A stretch of DNA of 64,000 nt from Mesonia profundi. Its GTDB lineage: Bacteria; Bacteroidota; Bacteroidia; Flavobacteriales; Flavobacteriaceae. The position numbers and the translations under genes were made by a program. The notes beneath the pieces were generated by a model. It saw only the letters and a list, made by a program, of their open reading frames with translations. It did not search any database and was not told the DNA's origin. Of this stretch, positions 592-27,241 are shown one piece after another (position 1 is the stretch's first letter; the number at the start of each line of letters is the position of its first letter). The DNA lies in contig NZ_JAVHUL010000017.1 in NCBI RefSeq assembly GCF_031085155.1, positions 1 through 64,000 on the forward strand. The letters are read 5' to 3'.

Positions 592-1467
592 ATTGCCTTA
601 AATAAATGATTCTACACTGGCATAAGCCATTAAAAATAGAAGTCATTAGCTCCAGATGGAACGGTTTAAGGCAGACATCATTGCCGATTTTGAAATGCAA
701 AGGTAAACGTTTTAAGTAAAGTACCGCAATAAATAATAGCCTTTTCATTTGCTCTATCTCCATCCAAATGAATAAGAATATCCAATTACACTCCCTCAAT
801 TGAATGTAGAAAATACTACCGAAGCCCACTCCTTTCTGATGCATTTTGCATATCCAACGCCTGAGTAATTCTTGTTTTGAACCCTTCTATTGACATTTTT
901 ATAACCTACAGTAGCGTAACGATTGTATTTTTTGAGCATTTACAAAACTGAAAGTCAGCACTAGAATCATACAAGTGAATATTTCTTTCATTTTTTTCTT
1001 CATTATCAGAGCTCTCTTATAATAATTTTCAAAAAATAATTCTCGTGATAAGCCAATCCCAGGCTCCAAATACTTTTCAACGAATTAGAGCTAATCAACT
1101 ATCTATTCTTGAAGCTTTAGGGTATTTTCAAACTCATTGAAAGTTTCCCAAACATCATTTAATTACTTCTGAAGAAAACGAATATATCGTGCATCTAGAC
1201 TGAAAGCCTAATAATTGAATTACGCTTCCCAACCTCTCAAAATTACTCTTTTAAGTGCAAAACACTTCTTCACTTTGTCAAGCTGTTTTTCTTGGTTCAC
1301 ATGGAATCAATCGGGTAATTACTACCCAGTTTTAAATAAATGTCGATATTTGACAGATTTCTAACAGTCAACTTCTTAAGCTTCAAAGCCACAAGAATTC
1401 TCATTTGTGGTACAAAAGTTGGCATGAAGCTGTCTAGAAATAAGCTAACAACCTATTGATAACGTCT
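592..1467. other. Long non-coding stretch with decayed gene remnants
   Basis: About 870 bases without an intact gene. On the minus strand, 1003 down to 899 reads a 34-residue frame beginning with a credible signal peptide (ending FSFVNAQK) that stops soon after the cleavage site. Coding-like text continues in shifted frames down to about 600 but is broken by stops. On the plus strand, around 1048-1205, another frame is interrupted by TGA codons. This fits erosion of one or two former genes next to the truncated ClC gene. No family was recognised. Confidence 0.45.
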
Positions 1468-12620: not shown

Positions 12621-13010
12621 TTACTCCAAGTTATCTTTATAAGTCCAAGCTTCATAACCGCCTTCTAGATCGTATATTTTCTCAAAACCAGCCTCTACAA
12701 GAATTTTTACGCATTTTTCGCTTCTTCCGCCTGTTTTGCAGTATACTGCAACCGGTTGAGATTTATCTAACTTAGAAATGTTAAGTTCAAAATCTTCGTC
12801 ATATACAATATTTTGAGCCCCTTCTAAATGCTCAGACTCAAAGTCACTCATTTCTCTTACATCAATCAGCTGTGTGTTGTCCAAATTCATGATCTCTTTC
12901 ATTTCTTCTTGAGAAACCATGGTTACTTGATTATTTTTAGGCTCAGTGCAAGAGCTAGAAATCAATAAAGTACTCAGTACAAAAAGAATTATCCAGTTGT
13001 TATTTTTCAT
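12621..13010 (-). CDS. Rhodanese-like lipoprotein
   Basis: 129-residue exported protein with a lipoprotein signal peptide ending LLISSSC (Cys21) and one rhodanese domain with an intact active loop, VAVYCKTGGRS (catalytic Cys91). Such domains move sulfane sulfur to thiols. Membrane anchoring would place the activity in the periplasm. It is the last of three tandem rhodanese genes and overlaps the one before it by 11 bases, so translation is probably coupled. Confidence 0.87.
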   Translation of the reverse strand: MKNNNWIILFVLSTLLISSSCTEPKNNQVTMVSQEEMKEIMNLDNTQLIDVREMSDFESEHLEGAQNIVYDEDFELNISKLDKSQPVAVYCKTGGRSEKCVKILVEAGFEKIYDLEGGYEAWTYKDNLE

Positions 13011-13383
13011 AAGTAATACTGTTCAAGTCACTCTCCCAGCTAGAATAACTGTTCATTAAAAAGTAAACTAGTTTAAAATCTTCTTTAAATAAAACCGAAG
13101 CCGCTTTCATAGCTTCATCTTCTTTTTCGGCATACAGTATTATGGTTTCATCTTTATCAAACTTCTCCATAGTGTGTTGAAACGTATTTGTAAATTCTAT
13201 ATGTTGCGCTCCATTTATATGGCTTTTTGCATAACTTTTCCTATCCCGAAGATCTATCACAAAAACGCTTTCCTCTTTCATAGTCTCCTGCAATTCTATA
13301 GGAGTGATAGATTTCATCTTCTTGGGCTCACAGCTTATAAATATGACCGCAATAAGTCCTAATAAAAGAAGCTTTCTAAACAT
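13000..13383 (-). CDS. Rhodanese-like lipoprotein lacking the catalytic cysteine
   Basis: 127-residue lipoprotein (signal peptide MFRKLLLLGLIAVIFISC, lipidation Cys18) with a rhodanese fold (VFVIDLRDRKSYAKSHINGA). The active loop reads IILYAEKEDEAMK: the catalytic cysteine is replaced by Ala and the CxxGxR loop is lost. It should be catalytically dead and may bind or scaffold its neighbours. ATG 13383 is chosen because it starts exactly at the signal peptide, 5 bases after the upstream gene ends. An earlier in-frame ATG would add a charged leader. Confidence 0.82.
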   Translation of the reverse strand: MFRKLLLLGLIAVIFISCEPKKMKSITPIELQETMKEESVFVIDLRDRKSYAKSHINGAQHIEFTNTFQHTMEKFDKDETIILYAEKEDEAMKAASVLFKEDFKLVYFLMNSYSSWESDLNSITYEK

Positions 13384-13388
13384 TTGTT

Positions 13389-13703
13389 TTAATCTTGTTC
13401 TGTTTTTCCTTCCCAATCAGAAAAGCCGCCTTGTAAATTATGAGTTTTCTCAAAACCCATTTGATCTAATATTTGACAAGCTTGTGTACTTCTTCCGCCA
13501 GAGCGACAATAAATATAGTACTCTTTAGATTTATCGAGCTGATTAATCGCATCCATAAATTCTTGTGGCTGGTGAATATCTATTAAAGTAGCGCCAGGAA
13601 TATAGCCTTCCTCCCACTCTTCTTGAGTTCTTACATCCAAAATCTCTACGTTAGCTTCATTTTCAATTGCTTTTTGCCACTCTTCTTGTGTTAAGTCTTT
13701 CAT
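13389..13703 (-). CDS. Cytoplasmic rhodanese-like protein
   Basis: 104-residue single-domain rhodanese without a signal peptide. It has the CDC25/rhodanese entry VEILDVRTQEEWEEGYIPGA, and the active loop YYIYCRSGGRST contains catalytic Cys66. It is the first gene of the three-rhodanese operon. A likely -7 element TAAATTTG lies on the minus strand at 13735-13728, but the -33 element is not clear. The role is sulfur transfer, with the physiological acceptor unknown. Confidence 0.88.
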   Translation of the reverse strand: MKDLTQEEWQKAIENEANVEILDVRTQEEWEEGYIPGATLIDIHQPQEFMDAINQLDKSKEYYIYCRSGGRSTQACQILDQMGFEKTHNLQGGFSDWEGKTEQD

Positions 13704-13990
13704 CTATGCATTTATTTTAGTAAAATGCAAATTTACCATTTTAAACTCAATTGAAGAATATGGCGAATACGAAGTTGTAAAAAAGTTGCCTTTCATGTTA
13801 AATTGGGATGGCAGAAAAAACATTAGTGACTCAACAGAAATGTTTTATCCATTCGGAAGATTTTATTATAATTAAATCAGCCCGAGAAAAAACTAACTTT
13901 TACACAGGAAAACTCTCTGATAATCAAAGAGATAATATGATTAAAGATCTTCTTAAACCAGAAATAAATTTTAAGTTTTATTTTAAATTG

Positions 13991-14021
13991 TTGTAGAAAA
14001 AGAAAAACGTTTATATCTTTG
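13991..14021 (+). promoter_or_regulatory. Promoter of the trp operon
   Basis: TTG (13991-13993), 20 bases, then TATCTTTG (14014-14021), a full match to the Bacteroidota TAnnTTTG -7 box. Transcription should start about 4-7 bases downstream, which is at or just before the leader-peptide ATG at 14027. Confidence 0.75.
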
Positions 14022-14026
14022 CATTC

Positions 14027-14083
14027 ATGTTTTCAAAAACTGTATATACTTGGTGGTGGATTAACTTACGTCAAACGTCGTGA
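14027..14083 (+). CDS. trpL: trp operon leader peptide (three consecutive Trp codons)
   Basis: An 18-codon frame, MFSKTVYTWWWINLRQTS, with Trp codons at 14051-14059. It lies between the trp promoter and an intrinsic terminator upstream of trpE. The arrangement is that of a ribosome-mediated attenuator: starvation for charged tRNA-Trp stalls the ribosome on the Trp codons. The predicted transcription start is within a few bases of the ATG, so translation would be leaderless or nearly so. There is no Shine-Dalgarno sequence. Confidence 0.85.
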   Translation: MFSKTVYTWWWINLRQTS

Positions 14084-14136
14084 GCTAGCTACTAGTTTGT
14101 ATAATCTATTATATAAAAAGGCTTGTCATTCACGAC
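14072..14136 (+). promoter_or_regulatory. Alternative pairings of the trp attenuator
   Basis: GTCGTGA (14077-14083, overlapping the leader stop codon) is exactly complementary to TCACGAC (14130-14136), which spans the loop and 3' arm of the terminator. This antiterminator and the terminator exclude each other. A second small stem, CAAAC (14072-14076) with GTTTG (14095-14099), could sequester the 5' strand. A ribosome at the Trp codons leaves 14077-14083 free; a ribosome at the stop codon covers it. Confidence 0.65.
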
Positions 14137-14147
14137 AAGCCTTTTTT
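14115..14147 (+). terminator. trp attenuator terminator
   Basis: Stem AAAAAGGCTTGTC (14115-14127) with GACAAGCCTTTTT (14134-14146), loop ATTCAC, followed by further T. It lies 26 bases before the trpE start codon, so it can stop transcription before the operon. Confidence 0.88.
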
Positions 14148-14172: not shown

Positions 14173-15567
14173 ATGTATACGTTAACCACTTCCTCCAAAA
14201 AAATAATCGCAGATACCATCACTCCAGTGAGTATTTACCTGAAATTAAGAGATAAATATCCTCACAGTCTTTTATTAGAAAGTAGTGATTACCACGCCAA
14301 TAATAATAGTTTTTCCTACATCTGTTGTAACCCGATTGCTTCTATTGAGGTTAAAAATAAAATGATTCATATTCAGTATCCAGATGGGAAATTAGAAAAA
14401 AAGCCGATTACAGATCAAGTTAATGTGATGGAAGAAATTCAAGCTTTCGCGGAAGTATTTCAAACTCAAAATCAGCCGTATTCCTTTATTCATAATGGTT
14501 TGTTTGGATATACTGGCTATGATGCCGTTAGGTATTTTGAAGACGTAACGATTGAGCAAAAAGAAAATAAGTTAGATATTCCTGATATGTACTATGCCGT
14601 ATATCAAAATATCATTGCTATTAATCATTTTAATAATGAAGCTTACTTATTTTCTCATACCTATCAAAAAGAAGACAATCTAGAGGAGATTTATAATTTA
14701 ATAAGCGTTCAAGATTTTGCTGAATTTGATTTTGAACTTAACGGAGAAATCACCTCTAATATAGATGATGAAACTTACCGTAATAATGTCTTAAAAGCAA
14801 AAGAACATTGTGCACGAGGAGATGTATTTCAACTTGTACTCTCCAAACGCTTTTCACAAAAATATAAAGGAGACGATTTTAATGTATATCGAGCCTTAAG
14901 AAGTGTAAACCCATCTCCTTACTTATTTTACTTTGATTATGGTAATTTTAAAATTTTTGGTAGCTCTCCAGAAGCTCAAATTGTGATACAAGGAGATCTT
15001 GCTGAAATTCATCCCATTGCAGGAACTATAAAACGCACGGGGGATGATGAGAAAGATGCCGCTGCTGCACAACAACTGGCGAAAGATCCTAAAGAAAATA
15101 GTGAACATGTGATGCTGGTCGATTTAGCCCGAAATGATTTAAGTAGAAATTCTTCTGAAGTTAAAGTGGAAACCTACAGAGAAATTCAATTTTTTTCTCA
15201 CGTTATTCATTTAGTGAGTAAAGTGACAGGAAAAAAGAAAAAAGATATTCCTAGCTTACAATTAGTAGCAGATACCTTTCCTGCAGGAACACTTAGCGGA
15301 GCACCAAAACACAAAGCGCTTCAACTTATCGAGAAATATGAAACCGTTAATCGTACTTTTTACGCTGGTGCCATTGGAGTAATGGATTTTAAAGGAAACT
15401 TTAATCACGCCATTATGATAAGAACCTTTCTAAGTAAAGATCATCAACTGCATTGGCAAGCAGGAGCAGGAATTGTAACCGATTCTACTCCAGAAAATGA
15501 ATTACAAGAAGTCTATCATAAATTAGCCGCCCTTACAAAAGCTTTAAATATCGCAACACAACTTTAA
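14173..15567 (+). CDS. trpE: Anthranilate synthase component I
   Basis: 464-residue chorismate-binding enzyme that makes anthranilate with TrpG, the first step of tryptophan synthesis. The N-terminal domain contains the LLES motif (residues 34-37), part of the tryptophan feedback site. The catalytic domain (about 200-455) has VLSKRFSQKY, SSPEAQIVIQG, IAGTIKRTGDDEKD, ELVxLARND-type DLARNDLSRN, and PAGTLSGAPK. It is the first structural gene of trpEGDCFBA and is separated from trpG by a single base. Confidence 0.96.
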   Translation: MYTLTTSSKKIIADTITPVSIYLKLRDKYPHSLLLESSDYHANNNSFSYICCNPIASIEVKNKMIHIQYPDGKLEKKPITDQVNVMEEIQAFAEVFQTQNQPYSFIHNGLFGYTGYDAVRYFEDVTIEQKENKLDIPDMYYAVYQNIIAINHFNNEAYLFSHTYQKEDNLEEIYNLISVQDFAEFDFELNGEITSNIDDETYRNNVLKAKEHCARGDVFQLVLSKRFSQKYKGDDFNVYRALRSVNPSPYLFYFDYGNFKIFGSSPEAQIVIQGDLAEIHPIAGTIKRTGDDEKDAAAAQQLAKDPKENSEHVMLVDLARNDLSRNSSEVKVETYREIQFFSHVIHLVSKVTGKKKKDIPSLQLVADTFPAGTLSGAPKHKALQLIEKYETVNRTFYAGAIGVMDFKGNFNHAIMIRTFLSKDHQLHWQAGAGIVTDSTPENELQEVYHKLAALTKALNIATQL

Positions 15568-15568
15568 T

Positions 15569-16135
15569 ATGAAAAAAATATTAGTCATAGATAATTACGA
15601 CAGTTTTGTGTATAATCTAGTACATTATTTAGAAGACCTCAACTGCCAAGTCACCGTTAAGCGGAATGATCAACTTTACTTAGAAGAAGTAGAAGATTAC
15701 GATAAGATTTTACTTTCTCCAGGACCAGGCATCCCTGAGGAAGCAGGTTTATTAAAAGAGATTATCCAAACTTACGCCAGTACAAAACCTATGTTGGGCG
15801 TTTGTTTAGGGCAACAAGCAATCGCTGAAGTTTTTGGAGGAAAACTCAACAATCTAGACAAAGTGTACCACGGGGTTGCAACTTCTATTGACATTATAGA
15901 GGAGGATTCTGTTTTATTTAAAGACCTTCCTAAAAAACTGGAAGTAGGTCGCTACCACTCTTGGATAGTTCAAGAACTTCCTGAGGTTTTAATCCCCACC
16001 TCTTATGATGAAAACGGACAAATTATGTCTATAAAACACAGAGATTTTCCTGTCTTTGCGGTACAATTTCATCCAGAGTCGGTATTGACTCCGTTAGGAA
16101 AAAAAATATTAGAGAACTGGGTAAATCACGCTTAA
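15569..16135 (+). CDS. trpG: Anthranilate synthase component II (glutamine amidotransferase)
   Basis: 188-residue class I glutamine amidotransferase supplying ammonia to TrpE. The nucleophile Cys79 lies in GVCLGQQ, with the catalytic His168/Glu170 in QFHPES. The oxyanion-loop motif LSPGPGIPEEAG is intact. It is a stand-alone subunit, neither fused to trpE nor to trpD. It starts one base after trpE, which suggests coupled translation and equal subunit supply. Confidence 0.95.
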   Translation: MKKILVIDNYDSFVYNLVHYLEDLNCQVTVKRNDQLYLEEVEDYDKILLSPGPGIPEEAGLLKEIIQTYASTKPMLGVCLGQQAIAEVFGGKLNNLDKVYHGVATSIDIIEEDSVLFKDLPKKLEVGRYHSWIVQELPEVLIPTSYDENGQIMSIKHRDFPVFAVQFHPESVLTPLGKKILENWVNHA

Positions 16136-16144
16136 AAAGTAATT

Positions 16145-17137
16145 ATGAAAGAGATTTTAAATAAATTAACTCATCACCAAATCTTAACAAAAGGGGAGGC
16201 TAAAGAAAGCTTAATTCAAATTTCTAAAGGAAACTACAATCCCACACAAATTGCTTCTTTTCTAACCACTTATATGATGCGAAGTATTCGTATTGAAGAA
16301 TTAGAAGGTTTTAGAGACGCTTTATTAGAACTTTGTATTCCTATTGATCTATCGGCTTATCAACCTATTGATTTATGCGGAACAGGTGGAGACCATAAAA
16401 ACACCTTCAATATTTCTACGCTGGCTTCTTTTATTACCGCAGGAGCAGGAATTGCTGTTGCAAAACATGGCAATTATAGTATATCCTCCATTAGTGGAAG
16501 TAGCAATGTTCTAGAATCCTTGGGTGTTAAATTCTCTAGTGAGGAGAAATTTTTACAACACTGTATAGAAGAAACCAATCTTTGCGTTTTACATGCACCG
16601 CTATTTCATCCCGCTATGAAAGCGGTAGCGTCTGTGAGAAAGGATTTAGCAGTTAAAACCTTTTTTAATATGCTAGGGCCCATGGTAAATCCCGCTTTTC
16701 CCAAAAAGCAAGTCGTAGGTGTTTTTAGTCTAGAATTAGCAAGGATGTATCACTACTTATATCAAAAAACCCCAAAATCATATACTATTGTTCACGCTTT
16801 AGATGCTTATGATGAAGTTTCTCTTACTGGTGATACAAAAATTTTCACCGCTAGTAAAGAAAATGTTTTAACACCTCAAGATTTTGGCTATTCCAAAATT
16901 AATCCACAAGAAATTTATGGCGGTAATTCTGTAGAGAAGGCAACAAAACTTTTTTATACTATCCTTAGCGGAAAAGGAACGGAGTCACAAAATGCCGTAG
17001 TGATTGCTAATTCCGCTTTAGCGATAGCAACTGCCAAAAATATAAATTTACCCGAAGCCTTAGCTGCTGCAAAAGAATCTCTACTTTCTAATAAAGCCTT
17101 GGAGGTCTTAAAAAAGGTTCAAAAAATTAGTGCCTAA
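16145..17137 (+). CDS. trpD: Anthranilate phosphoribosyltransferase
   Basis: 330-residue enzyme transferring phosphoribose from PRPP to anthranilate. Diagnostic motifs are DLCGTGGDHKNTFNIST (PRPP-binding GTGGD at 79-83), KHGNYSISSISGSSNVLESLG, and FNMLGPMVNPA. Length is normal for the family. Its stop codon shares one base with the trpC start. Confidence 0.95.
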   Translation: MKEILNKLTHHQILTKGEAKESLIQISKGNYNPTQIASFLTTYMMRSIRIEELEGFRDALLELCIPIDLSAYQPIDLCGTGGDHKNTFNISTLASFITAGAGIAVAKHGNYSISSISGSSNVLESLGVKFSSEEKFLQHCIEETNLCVLHAPLFHPAMKAVASVRKDLAVKTFFNMLGPMVNPAFPKKQVVGVFSLELARMYHYLYQKTPKSYTIVHALDAYDEVSLTGDTKIFTASKENVLTPQDFGYSKINPQEIYGGNSVEKATKLFYTILSGKGTESQNAVVIANSALAIATAKNINLPEALAAAKESLLSNKALEVLKKVQKISA

Positions 17138-17988
17138 TGGAAACGATATTAGAAAAAATAATACATCAAAAAAAGAAAGAGGTTATGCTTAAAGAAAGCC
17201 TCATTTCTCGTAAACAACTAGAAAATAGCGAACTTTTTAAACGTCATACTTTTTCTTTAAGTGAACAAATAAAAACTTCTCCTTTAGGTTTTGGAATTAT
17301 TGCAGAACATAAAAGACGATCTCCGTCTAGGTCTAGCATCAATACATCTCTACTCGTTCAAGAAGTTTTGGAGGCTTATGAGAATGCAGGTGTTAACGGA
17401 GCCTCCATCTTAACAGACAACAGTTTCTTTGGTGGTTCACTAGAAGATTTACTTTTGGCGAGAGCTACTGTAAAACTCCCACTCTTAAGAAAAGACTTTA
17501 TTATAGAGGAATATCAAGTTATAGAAGCCAAAGCTTTTGGTGCAGATGCAATTTTACTTATCGCTGCGACCTTAACTAAACAAAAAGTCAACTCTTTAAC
17601 CAAATTAGCTCAAAACTTAGGTTTAGAGGTATTATTAGAAGTTCATAACTTTAAAGAACTAGAGCAAAATATAGATACTCCCGTACAATTAATGGGCGTC
17701 AATAATAGAAACCTAAAAACTTTTGAAGTAAGCCTAGAGAATAGTTTAAGTTTAGTTCATCATATTCCAGATGGAGTAGTAAAAATTTCTGAAAGTGGAA
17801 TCAATTCTGCGGAAGCAATAAAAACTTTATACGATGTAGGATATGATGGTTTCTTAATTGGAGAACATTTTATGAAAACCAATGATCCAGAAAAAGAAGT
17901 GAAAAATTTTATACATAAAATCTGTCAACTCATTCCTAAAAAAAATGAATCTAAAAATCAAAATTTGCGGCATGAAACACCCAGATAA
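17137..17988 (+). CDS. trpC: Indole-3-glycerol phosphate synthase
   Basis: 283-residue TIM-barrel enzyme converting CdRP to indole-3-glycerol phosphate. It has the IIAEHKRRSPSR (catalytic Lys), LLRKDFIIEEYQV, LEVLLEVH, GVNNRNLKTF and ISESGI motifs. The C-terminus is about 20 residues longer than usual ([12 protein letters not shown] and on) because the frame runs 44 bases into trpF. The basic tail may be incidental to this overlap. Confidence 0.94.
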   Translation: METILEKIIHQKKKEVMLKESLISRKQLENSELFKRHTFSLSEQIKTSPLGFGIIAEHKRRSPSRSSINTSLLVQEVLEAYENAGVNGASILTDNSFFGGSLEDLLLARATVKLPLLRKDFIIEEYQVIEAKAFGADAILLIAATLTKQKVNSLTKLAQNLGLEVLLEVHNFKELEQNIDTPVQLMGVNNRNLKTFEVSLENSLSLVHHIPDGVVKISESGINSAEAIKTLYDVGYDGFLIGEHFMKTNDPEKEVKNFIHKICQLIPKKNESKNQNLRHETPR

Positions 17989-18562
17989 TATCAAAAAGGT
18001 TTCTGCACTTTCTCCAGATTATATAGGCTTTATTTTCTATAAGAAATCACCACGTTACCTTACTCAAATTCCCGAAAATATACCAGAGGGAATAAAAAAA
18101 ACAGGAGTTTTTGTAAATGAAGAATATGATCAAATTTTAGATAAAGTGAGACTTTTTAATTTACAAGCCGTACAGTTACACGGAGAAGAATCTGTAGAAT
18201 TATGTGAGAAATTGAGACATCAAAACTTAGAAGTCATCAAAGCTTTTTCTATAGACGACGACTTTAATTTTGAGAAAATCCATTCTTATCAAAAAGTTAC
18301 CGACTATTTTTTATTTGATACCAAAGGAAAAAATTATGGAGGCAACGGCCTTGCTTTCAACTGGAGTATTTTACAAAATTACAGATTTAGTCATCCATTT
18401 TTTTTAAGTGGAGGAATTGGTTTAGAACACAGCGAAGAAATCAAAAAAATAAATGATTCCTCTCTACCATTAGTAGGAATCGATCTTAACAGCAAGTTTG
18501 AAATAGCTCCAGGATTAAAAGACATCCAAAAATTAAAAAAAATGAAAGAATCTCTCTTATGA
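17945..18562 (+). CDS. trpF: Phosphoribosylanthranilate isomerase
   Basis: 205-residue TIM-barrel isomerase. The start [10 protein letters not shown] carries the catalytic Cys. Further motifs are [34 protein letters not shown] (catalytic Asp) and FLSGGIG. The phosphate-binding end reads [16 protein letters not shown], where most relatives have VDxSSGVE, an acceptable variant. It overlaps trpC by 44 bases and trpB by 4 bases. Confidence 0.93.
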
Positions 18563-19746
18563 AAAATTCATATCATATCAACGAAAAGGGGTATTATGGT
18601 GAGTTTGGAGGTGCATTTGTACCCGAAATGCTTCAACCCAATTTAGCCGAATTAAAAGAGCAATATCTAGAAATTCTTCAGGATAAAAAGTTTCAAGAAG
18701 AATTTCAAGACCTTCTGCAACACTACGTAGGACGACCTACTCCCCTCTACTATGCAAAGCGCTTAAGCGAAAAATATAAAACTCAAATTTACCTTAAGAG
18801 AGAAGACCTTTGCCATACGGGCGCTCATAAAATAAACAATACCATTGGTCAAACCTTGCTAGCCAAACGCTTAGGCAAAAAAAGAATTATTGCCGAAACT
18901 GGTGCAGGCCAGCACGGTGTAGCTACGGCGACCGTTTGCGCGCTCATAGGATTACCTTGCGTCATTTATATGGGCGCTATAGATATGGAAAGGCAAGCGC
19001 CAAATGTTGCCCGCATGAAAATGTTAGGCGCTACAATTATTGCTGCTACATCGGGCAGTAAAACTTTAAAAGATGCCACCAACGAAGCCATTAGAGATTG
19101 GATTCAAAATCCTAGCGACACCCATTATATTATAGGTTCTGTGGTGGGACCGCACCCTTATCCAGATTTGGTGGCGCGATTGCAAGGCGTGATTTCTAAA
19201 GAAATTAAAGTGCAACTTTTAAAAGCCGAAGGTAAAGAAAATCCAGATTATGTGATTGCCTGCGTTGGTGGAGGGAGCAACGCTGCGGGAGCTTTTTATC
19301 ATTTTTTAGAAGAGGAAAAAGTGAAACTTATTGCTGTAGAAGCTGCAGGGAAGGGTATAGATTCTGGCGAAAGTGCAGCTACTTCTATCTTAGGCAACAT
19401 AGGAATCATTCACGGGAGTAAAACTTTATTAATGCAAAGTAAAGACGGTCAAATCACCGAGCCTTATTCTATTTCGGCAGGATTAGATTATCCCGGCGTA
19501 GGCCCCTTACACGCTCATTTATATCAAACCAAAAGAGCAGATTTTATGGCCATTACAGATGATGATGCGATGAAAGCAGGACTTCAATTATCACAACTAG
19601 AAGGCATCATTCCCGCGATAGAAACCTCCCACGCTCTAGCGGTTTTAGAACAAAGAAAGTTTAAAAAAGAAGAGGTTGTAGTAATTAATCTATCTGGGCG
19701 TGGCGATAAAGATTTACAAACCTATATCGATTATTTTAATTTTTAA
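18559..19746 (+). CDS. trpB: Tryptophan synthase beta chain
   Basis: 395-residue PLP enzyme joining indole with serine. The cofactor lysine lies in [14 protein letters not shown] (Lys91). [18 protein letters not shown] and the phosphate-binding [10 protein letters not shown] are intact, as is [11 protein letters not shown]. It belongs to the classical TrpB1 type that works with TrpA. It overlaps trpF by 4 bases. The gap to trpA is 90 bases and filled by a repeat element, unlike the rest of the operon. Confidence 0.96.
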
Positions 19747-19826
19747 GGGCGTTCGAGCGGGTCATCCGCTATATCTTTTGCGTTTTTCAACGCAAAAGGA
19801 TACCGCTTCTACCCCTAACGCAAAAA
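19747..19826 (+). repeat. Dispersed imperfect palindromic repeat, copy 1 (inside the trp operon)
   Basis: Element starting GGGCGTT, containing AGCGGGTC, a central hairpin CTTTTGCGTT-TTTC-AACGCAAAAG (19775-19798), and ending CCTAACGCAAAA. It fills the gap between trpB and trpA, starting right after the trpB stop codon. A second copy with the same ends lies inverted at 55971-56098. From memory, similar elements are common between genes in Flavobacteriaceae. The outer GCGTT/AACGC arms make the whole element an imperfect palindrome. Confidence 0.75.
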
Positions 19827-19836
19827 AACAACAGTA

Positions 19837-20610
19837 ATGAATAGAATACAAACACGATTACAGCATAACAAAAAGATTCTCTCTATATATTTTACAGCAG
19901 GTTTCCCTAATTTAGAGGATACGGTATCTATTATCAAATCTCTAGAAGAGAATGGAGTAGACATGATAGAGATTGGTTTACCTTTTAGTGATCCGCTAGC
20001 AGATGGACCAACCATACAGTCAATTTCTACGAAAGCTCTCAAGAACGGAATGACTACCAAAATTCTTTTTGAGCAACTTAAAGATATCCGCGAAAGCGTA
20101 AAAATTCCTTTATTAATTATGGGTTATTTTAATCCTATTTTTCAATATGGGGTAGAGAAATTTTGTAAAAAATGTAAAGAAATTGGTATTGACGGACTTA
20201 TAATTCCAGATCTTCCTCTAGAAGTCTATGAAGAAGAGTATCACTCTATTTTTAAAAATTATGGGCTTTTAAATATTTTTCTCATCACCCCACAAACTTC
20301 TGAAGTACGTATTAGAAAAATTGATGCCATTTCTAAAGGTTTTATCTATATGGTAAGTTCGGCAAGTGTAACTGGAGGAAAGAATAGTTTTGGAAAAGAA
20401 CAGCTTCATTATTTTGAACGTATTCATAACCTGAAATTAAAAGCCCCACAAATTGTTGGCTTTGGAATTCGTCATCAAGAAAGTTTTTTTCAGGCAACCA
20501 AATTTGCAAATGGAGCAATTATAGGTTCTGCTTTTGTAAATTTCTTAAGAGAAAATTCAATTCAGCAAATAGATACTTTTACACGTAAATTTAATTCTCT
20601 TAAAAAATAA
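19837..20610 (+). CDS. trpA: Tryptophan synthase alpha chain
   Basis: 257-residue TIM-barrel enzyme releasing indole from indole-3-glycerol phosphate. MIEIGLPFSDPLADGPTIQ contains the catalytic Glu45 and Asp56. GLIIPDLPLEVYEEE, YMVSSASVTGGKN and GFGIRHQESF follow in family order. It is the last gene of the trp operon, displaced from trpB by the repeat element. No terminator is visible right after it. Confidence 0.95.
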   Translation: MNRIQTRLQHNKKILSIYFTAGFPNLEDTVSIIKSLEENGVDMIEIGLPFSDPLADGPTIQSISTKALKNGMTTKILFEQLKDIRESVKIPLLIMGYFNPIFQYGVEKFCKKCKEIGIDGLIIPDLPLEVYEEEYHSIFKNYGLLNIFLITPQTSEVRIRKIDAISKGFIYMVSSASVTGGKNSFGKEQLHYFERIHNLKLKAPQIVGFGIRHQESFFQATKFANGAIIGSAFVNFLRENSIQQIDTFTRKFNSLKK

Positions 20611-24540: not shown

Positions 24541-24573
24541 TGGTAAACCCACCTGTTTAGAAAATAATTGACA

Positions 24574-25842
24574 ATGACTAACTACAAAAACACTTTAGAA
24601 TTTGCTAAAGAATTAGATCAAAAAGATCCTTTAGCAGATTTTAGAAACCAATTTCATATCCCTACTAATCCAGATGGTTCTCAGCAAATTTACCTTTGCG
24701 GAAATTCATTAGGCTTACAACCCAAAAAAACCAAAGAATACCTTCAAGAAGAATTAACCGACTGGGCCAATTTAGGCGTAGAAGGGCATACCCAAGCAAA
24801 ACATCCTTGGATGCCTTATCACGAATTTTTATCCGAAAAAATGGCTAAAATCGTAGGTGCAAAACCTAGTGAAGTAGTCATGATGAATACGCTAAGCGTC
24901 AACCTTCATTTGATGATGGTGAGCTTTTTTCGTCCTACTTCAAAAAAATATAAAATTCTTATAGAAAGTGATGCTTTCCCTTCAGATAAATATGCGGTAG
25001 AATCCCAATTGAAACTACACAATATAAATCCTAAAGATGGACTTATCTTATGGAAACCCAGAGAAGGAGAAGAGTTATGCCGATTGGAAGATTTAGAGAA
25101 AATCATGAAAGAGCAAGGTGATGAAATTGCTTTGGTGATGATTGGAACCACTAATTATTATACGGGACAATCTTTTCCAATCAAAGAAATCACTCAGTTA
25201 GCACACCAATACAATTGTAAGGTTGGTTTTGATTTGGCTCACGGAGCAGGAAATATTCAGCCGCAGCTTCACGATAGCGGCGCAGATTTTGCTGTTTGGT
25301 GTAGTTATAAATACCTAAATAGTGGTCCCGGAAGTGTGGGAGGCTGTTTTGTGCACGAAAAACACGCCTACGATAAAAACCTAAAACGATTTGCCGGTTG
25401 GTGGGGGCACAACAAATCTACCCGTTTTAATATGCGCCACGATTTTGATCCTATTCCCGGAGCCGAAGGTTGGCAATTAAGCAATCCGCCTATTTTATCT
25501 ATGGCAGCCATTAGAGCTTCTTTAGATGTGTTTGATGAAGCAGGGTTTGATAACATTAGAGAAAAAGCCGTAAAACTTACTGGCTTTTTAGAATATTTAT
25601 TACACCAAATTAAGGACGATCGCATAGAGTTGATTACGCCTACAAATCCGCAAGAGCGAGGTTCACAAATCTCGATCAAGCTAAAAGGAGTAACCAAACA
25701 ATTATTTAACGATTTGATGAACGCTGGAGTAATCAGTGATTGGAGAGAGCCTAATGTGATTAGGATTGCCCCTATCCCACTCTACAATTCTTACCAAGAT
25801 GTGTTTGGTATGGTTCAAATCTTAAAAAAATTACTAAAGTAA
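24574..25842 (+). CDS. kynU: Kynureninase
   Basis: 422-residue PLP enzyme that splits kynurenine or 3-hydroxykynurenine into alanine and (3-hydroxy)anthranilate. The start IYLCGNSLGLQPK is typical. The cofactor lysine lies in WCSYKYLNSGPGSVGG (near Lys246), preceded by FDLAHGAGN. ATG 24574 is used; an in-frame TTG six bases earlier is less likely. It is the first gene of a seven-gene tryptophan-degradation cluster and is followed by the monooxygenase after one base. Confidence 0.95.
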   Translation: MTNYKNTLEFAKELDQKDPLADFRNQFHIPTNPDGSQQIYLCGNSLGLQPKKTKEYLQEELTDWANLGVEGHTQAKHPWMPYHEFLSEKMAKIVGAKPSEVVMMNTLSVNLHLMMVSFFRPTSKKYKILIESDAFPSDKYAVESQLKLHNINPKDGLILWKPREGEELCRLEDLEKIMKEQGDEIALVMIGTTNYYTGQSFPIKEITQLAHQYNCKVGFDLAHGAGNIQPQLHDSGADFAVWCSYKYLNSGPGSVGGCFVHEKHAYDKNLKRFAGWWGHNKSTRFNMRHDFDPIPGAEGWQLSNPPILSMAAIRASLDVFDEAGFDNIREKAVKLTGFLEYLLHQIKDDRIELITPTNPQERGSQISIKLKGVTKQLFNDLMNAGVISDWREPNVIRIAPIPLYNSYQDVFGMVQILKKLLK

Positions 25843-25843
25843 T

Positions 25844-27241
25844 ATGAAAGAACAAGAACATATTCTAGTTATTGGCGCCGGTCTTTGCGGAAGTCTTTTC
25901 GCTTTAAGATTAGCCCAAAGAGGTTATAAAGTAAGCTTAGTTGAAAAAAGACCCGATTTAAGAAGCACCGATATTTCTGCAGGAAGATCCATCAATTTAG
26001 CATTTTCAGATCGTGGTATAAAAGCCATGAATCTCGTCGGATTAAAAGGAAAAGCAAAAGATTTGTGTATTCCCATGCACGGAAGAATGATTCATAACCT
26101 AGAACAAGAAGAATTTTTATCACGCTACAGCGGATTAGAATCAGAATACATCAACTCCATTTCTAGGTCAGATTTAAATGCTTTGTTACTGGATGAAGCC
26201 GAAAAAATGCCTCACCTAAGTACTCAATTCAATCAAGCTTGCATCGATGTAGATTTACAAAATGCCAAAGCTACTTTTGAAGATTTTAATACTAAAGAAA
26301 AATCTACCATCCAAGCTGATGTTATATTTGGTACGGATGGCGCAGGTTCTGTGGTTAGAAAAAGCATGCTAGACGATCATTTGTTCTTATTTAGTTTTTC
26401 ACAAGATTATTTGTCGCACGGTTATAAAGAACTCACTATTCCTGCCGGAAAAGATGGAGGTTTTAGAATAGAAAAGAACGCTTTACATATTTGGCCTAGA
26501 GGAGAAAATATGGTGATTGCGCTTCCTAACCTTGACGGAAGTTTTACCGTGACTCTATTTTTATCTTACGAAGAAGGAGAGCATAATTTTAAAAATTTAG
26601 ACACTCCAGAAAAGGTGAAAGCTTATTTTGAAAAAATGTATCCTTCCGCGGCAGCGCATATGCCAACTTTAACTGAAGACTTTTTCAACAACCCTACAAG
26701 TCCGTTAGGAACGGTAAAATGTTCTCCTTGGAATAGCTTTGGAAAAGTGATGTTATTGGGAGATTCTGCTCATGCTATTGTTCCGTTTTACGGACAGGGT
26801 ATGAATGCTTCTTTTGAAGATGTGGTTGTCTTCGATGAAATTTTAGATCTTTATGAAGGAGACTGGAATAAGGTTTTCAAAGAATATCAGAAAAAGAGAA
26901 AAGTAGACACCGATGCGATTGCTGAATTGGCGATTGATAATTTTCACGAAATGAAGGAGCACACCGCGGCACCTATATTTCAGAAAAAAAGAAAATTAGA
27001 AACTGCTTTTGAGCAAGAGTTTCCTAAAGAATATGCTTCAAAATACCGATTAGTGACTTTTCAGGAAAACATTAGCTACTCAGAAGCGCTTAAAAAAGGA
27101 AGAGCACAAGACAAAGCCATTCTTAACTTATTGGCGCAGGATAAAATAAATGAAGACGCTTCTTTACAAGAAAAACTTCATTTAGTGAATAAAGAAACGC
27201 AAGAAATATTAGAAGAAGATGCCGTTTTAAAAACAAATTAG
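25844..27241 (+). CDS. kmo: Kynurenine 3-monooxygenase
   Basis: 465-residue FAD-dependent aromatic hydroxylase converting kynurenine to 3-hydroxykynurenine with NADPH and oxygen. The N-terminal FAD-binding fold contains GAGLCGSLFALRLAQRG. The second FAD motif is LLGDSAHAIVPFYGQGMNA near residue 303. RSTDISAGRSINLAFSDRG is diagnostic of KMO over other hydroxylases. The C-terminal part is hydrophilic rather than a membrane anchor, as expected for bacterial enzymes. Confidence 0.95.
   Translation: MKEQEHILVIGAGLCGSLFALRLAQRGYKVSLVEKRPDLRSTDISAGRSINLAFSDRGIKAMNLVGLKGKAKDLCIPMHGRMIHNLEQEEFLSRYSGLESEYINSISRSDLNALLLDEAEKMPHLSTQFNQACIDVDLQNAKATFEDFNTKEKSTIQADVIFGTDGAGSVVRKSMLDDHLFLFSFSQDYLSHGYKELTIPAGKDGGFRIEKNALHIWPRGENMVIALPNLDGSFTVTLFLSYEEGEHNFKNLDTPEKVKAYFEKMYPSAAAHMPTLTEDFFNNPTSPLGTVKCSPWNSFGKVMLLGDSAHAIVPFYGQGMNASFEDVVVFDEILDLYEGDWNKVFKEYQKKRKVDTDAIAELAIDNFHEMKEHTAAPIFQKKRKLETAFEQEFPKEYASKYRLVTFQENISYSEALKKGRAQDKAILNLLAQDKINEDASLQEKLHLVNKETQEILEEDAVLKTN

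Follow-up and report, generated by a model that had tools for sequence, protein, structure and literature searches.

A Bacteroid-trp attenuator with a putatively near-leaderless leader peptide upstream of the trp operon of Mesonia profundi

The trp operon in a 64,000-nucleotide stretch of the genome of the flavobacterium Mesonia profundi (hereinafter the window) is preceded by a short frame with consecutive Trp codons, whose start codon lies so close to a promoter box that the question arises of how this leader peptide is read and how its reading could bear on the terminator that follows. An earlier note on this DNA had proposed a near-leaderless Trp attenuator with mutually exclusive hairpins. 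Its two basic observations can be read directly in the sequence (Table 1): the -7 box ends five bases ahead of the leader ATG, and the three Trp codons are followed by GTCGTGA, which runs across the stop codon and forms seven Watson-Crick pairs with TCACGAC in the terminator. We consider it likely that the locus is an RF01692-type ribosome-mediated trp attenuator, with a leader peptide translated from an mRNA that has little or no 5′ untranslated leader.

Table 1. Parts of the trp leader locus and their positions in the window
Feature	Position	Strand	Basis or remark
TTGTTG, -33 element	13988-13993	+	read from sequence
RF01692 Bacteroid-trp match, model positions 1-131	14007-14127	+	covariance model
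-7 box TATCTTTG, consensus TAnnTTTG	14014-14021	+	sequence and relatives
CATTC, five bases between -7 box and ATG	14022-14026	+	sequence
Predicted transcription start, 5′ UTR of 0-1 nt	14026-14027	+	after the box placement in F. psychrophilum
Leader peptide MFSKTVYTWWWINLRQTS and stop, 18-codon frame	14027-14083	+	sequence
Leader start codon ATG	14027-14029	+	sequence
Three Trp codons (WWW)	14051-14059	+	sequence
GTCGTGA	14077-14083	+	overlaps leader stop TGA, 14081-14083
Antiterminator 5′ strand GTCGTGAGCTAGCT (region 2)	14077-14090	+	predicted fold
Intrinsic terminator hairpin, 13 pairs (regions 3 and 4)	14115-14146	+	fold and relatives
Terminator arms; loop ATTCAC	14115-14127 and 14134-14146; 14128-14133	+	
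Antiterminator 3′ strand GGCTTGTCATTCACGAC	14120-14136	+	predicted fold; terminator 5′ arm, loop and first 3 nt of 3′ arm
TCACGAC	14130-14136	+	four terminator-loop bases and three 3′-arm bases
T run	14142-14147	+	predicted termination at ~14147
trpE, trpG, trpD, trpC, trpF, trpB, trpA	14173-20610	+	Pfam scan of seven proteins; trpG, trpD and trpB named by general Pfam family and operon position

The attenuator as such is an already known system, a member of the Bacteroid-trp family, as is apparent from the RF01692 match and the earlier publication of that family. The match is full-length, scores 70.1 bits against a curated cut-off of 49 (E = 1.1e-6 for the whole window), encloses consecutive Trp codons and is followed by trp genes; it is the single match in its genome at E ≤ 0.001. 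A 2010 survey includes Bacteroid-trp among the RNAs of Bacteroidetes that are likely to act in cis as regulators (Weinberg et al. 2010, Table 1, PMC2864571), and it is mentioned ahead of the trp operon of Flavobacterium psychrophilum (PMC6414381). A Bacteroides genome used as a control also matches RF01692. The window itself contains an L19-Flavobacteria ribosomal protein leader (RF03130; 63073-63100, + strand). A Trp-leader pattern gave six matches in the M. profundi genome as compared to nine for the reversed pattern; judged by the matched letters, the one at the trp operon is the sole leader among the six.

Among 395 genomes sampled through the phylum RF01692 is found in 47 (38 over the cut-off), and in the family Flavobacteriaceae 117 of 149 genomes contain it (95 of them with a score over the cut-off), almost every one from a different genus. 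We analysed 156 of the 157 distinct matches, one at a contig edge (G473) being left out; in all but L156 the leader frame carries WW or WWW. Of the 32 family genomes with no Rfam match, 20 were searched for TrpE, which is present with at least 50% identity in 15, while five have distant relatives alone (at most 33%). Eleven of these fifteen are represented by loci, with G396, G427, G438 and G470, which have a strong TrpE, left out; one locus at a contig edge (L168) was dropped, and the ten readable trpE upstream regions (L164-L167 and L169-L174) all show by eye both a terminator and a leader with WW or WWW. Thus, the Rfam model misses divergent members. In a relative of the same genus (G444) the best TrpE has 33% identity, so that the trp operon seems to be missing there; this assembly may be incomplete. 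Several loci in the class, from families other than Flavobacteriaceae, have the leader in front of a gene other than trpE, namely a TrpB-like gene (L002, L007, L028 and L061) or a TrpD-like gene (L066 and L071, called by eye from translations, and L067, L070 and L072, called by their grouping with these two in a tree).

The promoter offers the means of predicting where the mRNA begins. In F. psychrophilum the -7 box, with the consensus TAnnTTTG, occupies positions -12 to -5 (PMC9723704). Accordingly, a spacing of five nucleotides between box and ATG would place the transcription start one base ahead of the ATG; more generally, spacings of 4-5 nt predict a 5′ UTR of 0-1 nt, and those of 16-20 nt a leader of 12-16 nt. 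If +1 is 14026, the second TTG of TTGTTG falls at -35 to -33. Across the relatives, 141 of the 150 parsed leaders have a perfect -7 box and 118 of these 141 have a TTG 17-26 nt ahead of it. A 62-codon frame (13808-13996, + strand) lacking a Pfam family ends inside the trp promoter, just past the -33 element.

The spacing was counted as the nucleotides between the end of the -7 box and the first in-frame ATG. It was parsed in 150 of the 156 loci (the exceptions being L061, L086, L122, L135, L154 and L156; that of L044 was reset by hand from 4 to 18) and read by eye in the ten loci with no Rfam match, giving 160 leaders. The distribution is two-peaked, with 36 leaders at 4-5 nt and 67 at 16-20 nt. 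The short peak is sharp: 29 leaders sit at exactly 5 nt, seven at 4, four at 6 and none at 3, so that the 5-nt leaders make up 29 of the 58 in the range of 3-9 nt. The predicted 12-16 nt leaders of the long-spacing loci look A-rich by eye. As a small control sample, among 61 frames of at least 120 codons in the window only five have a box within 60 nt, at distances of 15-33 nt. The near-leaderless attenuator of the earlier note stands as the best reading of the locus, but Bacteroid-trp is known in the phylum, and the less usual trait, a message that seems to begin at the start codon of the leader peptide, has the spacing that recurs in 36 of 160 leaders. In leaderless members, positions 1 to about 20 of the RF01692 model fall on promoter DNA, so that the model includes bases that would lie outside the transcript.

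We placed the short class (at most 6 nt, 39 rows) on a TrpE tree built with FastTree from partial sequences (163 rows, with L056, L094 and L152 left out owing to a short frame; ten of the rows, L002, L007, L028, L061, L066, L071, L156, L067, L070 and L072, represent another protein). It shows 16 changes as compared to 35 for shuffled labels, at least five of the 16 being forced by well-supported branches. Hence, the short class is clustered in lineages, yet arose or was lost several times, and, as judged from sequence, the near-leaderless trp leader seems to be a recurrent variant in relatives of the family. Leaderless messages make up 5.5% of the mapped mRNAs of F. psychrophilum in the main text of PMC9723704, and about 3.7% of 5′ UTRs are under 10 nt in Bacteroides thetaiotaomicron by the account in PMC7366714; these genome-wide shares contrast with the 36 of 160 trp leaders at a predicted 0-1 nt. 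Our literature search, with supplements and most subscription journals outside its reach, found no paper recognisable as a description of leaderless attenuators in Bacteroidota. PMC9723704 reports leader-peptide attenuation ahead of amino-acid operons, and its supplement may hold leaderless cases.

Downstream of the start, the sequence and its predicted folds present the parts of an attenuator: regulatory Trp codons in a leader, followed by a competing antiterminator and an intrinsic terminator. The leader RNA folds with a z-score of -5.0, none of 200 shuffles being equally good. The mutually exclusive hairpins of the earlier note hold, but the 7-mer pairing it gave as their basis is too small a reason, since GTCGTGA/TCACGAC alone overlaps only three of the 13 terminator pairs. 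With a ribosome on the third Trp codon and the polymerase at 14137-14139, we obtained an antiterminator fold of -18.7 kcal/mol, in which 14077-14085 and 14087-14090 are predicted to pair with 14130-14136, 14125-14126 and 14120-14123. These 13 pairs span the 5′ arm of the terminator, its loop and the top of its 3′ arm. The fold adds GC:GU and AGCU:GGCU pairs to the 7-mer helix; therefore, the core of the terminator 5′ arm is also taken by the antiterminator. The 7-mer pairing as the entire antiterminator was dropped, as the fold showed this longer helix and a fixed-register test of the pairing (see below) was not significant. The 13-pair antiterminator also accounts for parts outside the Rfam model.

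The predicted folds further depend on where the ribosome stands and how far the polymerase has moved, the ribosome edge being assumed to lie about 12-15 nt past the A-site codon. With the ribosome at the stop codon, region 2 is covered and the top of the terminator has a probability of 0.98 once the polymerase is at 14137. With no ribosome, a hairpin of the Trp-codon region holds region 2 and the terminator top reaches 0.99 at 14139. A ribosome on the third Trp codon gives a terminator probability of already 0.62 at 14141; when it sits on the first Trp codon, this probability rises from 0.23 with the polymerase at 14139 to 1.0 at 14141. For the full-length transcript (14147) equilibrium favors the terminator in each of the four ribosome states tried; therefore, the switch must be kinetic, dependent on timing.

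We accordingly favor the following order of events as a working model. Transcription would start at about 14026-14027, leaving the first codon at the 5′ end to be loaded by a ribosome directly, with no untranslated leader. When Trp-tRNA is ample, the ribosome would reach the stop codon inside region 2 and cover that region, allowing the terminator to form. When Trp-tRNA is scarce, it would stall on the WWW codons and expose region 2, which, with the polymerase at about 14137, could pair with the terminator 5′ arm, loop and top of the 3′ arm and so let the polymerase pass into trpE. If the leader is not translated, base pairing of the Trp-codon region with the region-2 side could leave the terminator free to form.

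The relatives were examined for the loss of the frame or of the pairing, which had been set beforehand as a refutation of the attenuator; neither search refuted it, although within Flavobacteriaceae the pairing proved to be conserved rather than covarying. Region 2 and the terminator apex can form a contiguous helix of at least six pairs in 155 of 164 loci (L109 and L154 being dropped from this and the fixed-register test) as compared to 25% with shuffled region 2; it is weak in L062, L145, L147 and L155 and short in L066, L067, L070 and L072. A plain count of at least six pairs, reached by 152 of 153 loci (with L156 dropped in addition to the above two, as also in the swap test), is weakly specific, as 896 of 1530 shuffled elements also reach it. 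In the swap test, with kinship uncorrected throughout, the terminator of the same locus is a better partner for region 2 than the terminators of other loci (-12.87 versus -12.05 over all loci; 0 of 5000 permutations), and so it is among 24 divergent loci (-12.21 for own versus -9.90 for swapped partners; 0 of 20,000 permutations); another swap test with a divergent set of 29 likewise favored own partners. In individual divergent loci the sequence is replaced with complementarity kept: GGATTCAG/CTGAATCC in L174, ATGTGGC/GCCACAT in L073, TTTGTCGCAAT/ATTGCGACAAG in L121, and likewise in L170. Moreover, the TCGTGA-like core of region 2 persists where the leader stop is elsewhere (L039, L040, L049, L077 and others), indicating that region 2 is not kept as a stop codon.

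The covariation that the earlier note had suggested looking for across Flavobacteriaceae leaders was found in one of the two helices. In a set of 63 leaders (64 chosen for our model R1, with L060 falling out) the terminator stem covaries, ten pairs being paired in 100% of 630 cells and four of them changed on both sides, but the 7-mer pairing is conserved with no two-sided change and no excess over shuffles, its first pair being missing in 25 of the 63. The fixed-register test on 35 distinct combinations gave 75.5% versus 72.3%, with the highest shuffle at 77.6%, and was not significant.

These results bear on three other explanations. The near-invariance of the 7-mer in Flavobacteriaceae, lacking two-sided changes, is what one might expect if the pairing of region 2 with the terminator loop had some other purpose, such as a protein site or a sequence-specific terminator loop, with antitermination proceeding via a different pairing. 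We hold this to be quite improbable, as the divergent loci replace the sequence yet stay complementary, and the predicted antiterminator pairing includes the terminator 5′ arm. A constitutive promoter-proximal terminator, with the WWW frame as chance or relic, would also suit the equilibrium result, in which the finished transcript adopts the terminator whichever of the four ribosome states is tried; this notion is hardly credible against the retention of the WWW frame, region 2 and terminator together across 117 family genomes, nearly all of different genera.

An ordinary Bacteroid-trp attenuator, transcribed from further upstream by another promoter or by read-through from the 62-codon frame, would have a normal leader and render the 5-nt spacing irrelevant. 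The end of that frame just ahead of the leader and the longer spacing of most relatives (over 5 nt in 124 of 160 leaders) fit such an upstream start; in turn, both promoter boxes are present and conserved, a peak as sharp as that at 5 nt would be left unexplained and the 62-codon frame belongs to no Pfam family. We regard an upstream start as a minor possibility and retain the leaderless or nearly leaderless attenuator as the preferred reading.

In the trp leader of E. coli a Shine-Dalgarno-led start precedes tandem WW codons, and the antiterminator uses the 5′ arm of the terminator. The present leader resembles it in its Trp codons, stop, and competing antiterminator and terminator, but differs in that the terminator loop and the top of the 3′ arm are also used by the antiterminator. 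Since leaderless trp leaders are known in Sinorhizobium meliloti, an Alphaproteobacterium, and in Streptomyces, the leader described here is a variant within a known kind. In S. meliloti, which we liken to it by published description rather than by sequence, the trp leader transcript begins with the ATG of the 14-codon trpL, as described in PMC7298713. By the description in PMC8079986, trpL1 of Streptomyces lividans is comparable in being leaderless, having 18 residues with WWW (MFAHSTRNWWWTAHPAAH) and standing before trpE, but it belongs to an Actinobacterium in which that source calls trpE monocistronic. Leaderless Cys attenuators of mycobacteria are the subject of a paper cited in PMC13236596. 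As for the RF01692 model itself, the M. profundi locus shares with it the full length, the Trp leader frame, the downstream trp genes and a hairpin between the Trp codons and the region-2 side; in contrast, the model ends at the terminator 5′ arm and so lacks the terminator loop and the antiterminator. The sections of Weinberg et al. 2010 (PMC2864571) that treat Bacteroid-trp and were consulted do not discuss the translation start.

The his leader of Flavobacteriaceae, from the same family of organisms, likewise has two spacing classes; unlike in the trp leader, its short class lies mostly at 6-10 rather than 5 nt, and the RNA is different. A 5′ structured element of hisG is already reported in the main text of PMC9723704. 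Of the hisG upstream regions of 40 family genomes, 36 have a His-rich leader and a box, often imperfect, with 12 spacings at 4-10 nt (the single 4 belonging to an imperfect box), 22 at 14-21 nt and two outliers, L187 at 24 and L189 at 27, better read by eye as 17 and 7. The rows with no spacing are L200 (a leader with no box) and L176, L180 and L203 (none). In M. profundi itself hisG is preceded by a His leader (MRTFNLHHHFHFHA) whose box and ATG are 8 nt apart (G000:C32:14400-15500, L175). The trp and his spacings show a rank correlation of 0.66 over 34 genomes with kinship uncorrected and with some values taken by eye (his of L187, used as 15 and 17 on re-reading, and of L189; trp of G407, G445 and G455). 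In a tree-controlled test (33 rows) the supported branches gave a single usable pair and the full set of branches up to 4-6; hence, this link is not established.

Model R1 also served to look for the module outside the trp operon. Matches came from 97 of 100 family genomes, and ten of the non-trp places among those listed all look by eye like gene-end terminators. One exception came from the RF01692 matches: L156 (and L225) of genome G415, with 38.9 bits, falls below the cut-off, lacks WWW and precedes a gene that by eye is aspartokinase-like. Its region 2 and terminator are the same as in the trp leaders, but a lysine-rich frame KLINILNKKDKKVHLRRTS follows a TTG (by eye), which would suit a switch transferred to a different amino acid.

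Elsewhere in the window, kynureninase-like and kynurenine monooxygenase-like frames for Trp breakdown (24568-27241, + strand; by eye) lie a few kb from the trp operon. Three adjacent rhodanese-like frames, of which the central one lacks the cysteine loop typical of such domains (by eye), occupy 12621-13703 (- strand), and a fluoride riboswitch (RF01734, 46 bits) lies at 630-694 (- strand).

The mode of ribosome loading bears on control in such leaders, because the first ribosome loads with RNA polymerase only tens of bases ahead. We tentatively propose, though somewhat more inclined to doubt than to accept it, that the trp attenuator of Flavobacteriaceae has switched repeatedly and in both directions between a leaderless start and a short A-rich leader, with the downstream switch unchanged, and that other amino-acid attenuators have perhaps done likewise. 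If so, these loci would be natural pairs for testing the effect of start mode on coupling and attenuation, and the measurement would be made in bacteria that do not use Shine-Dalgarno sequences.
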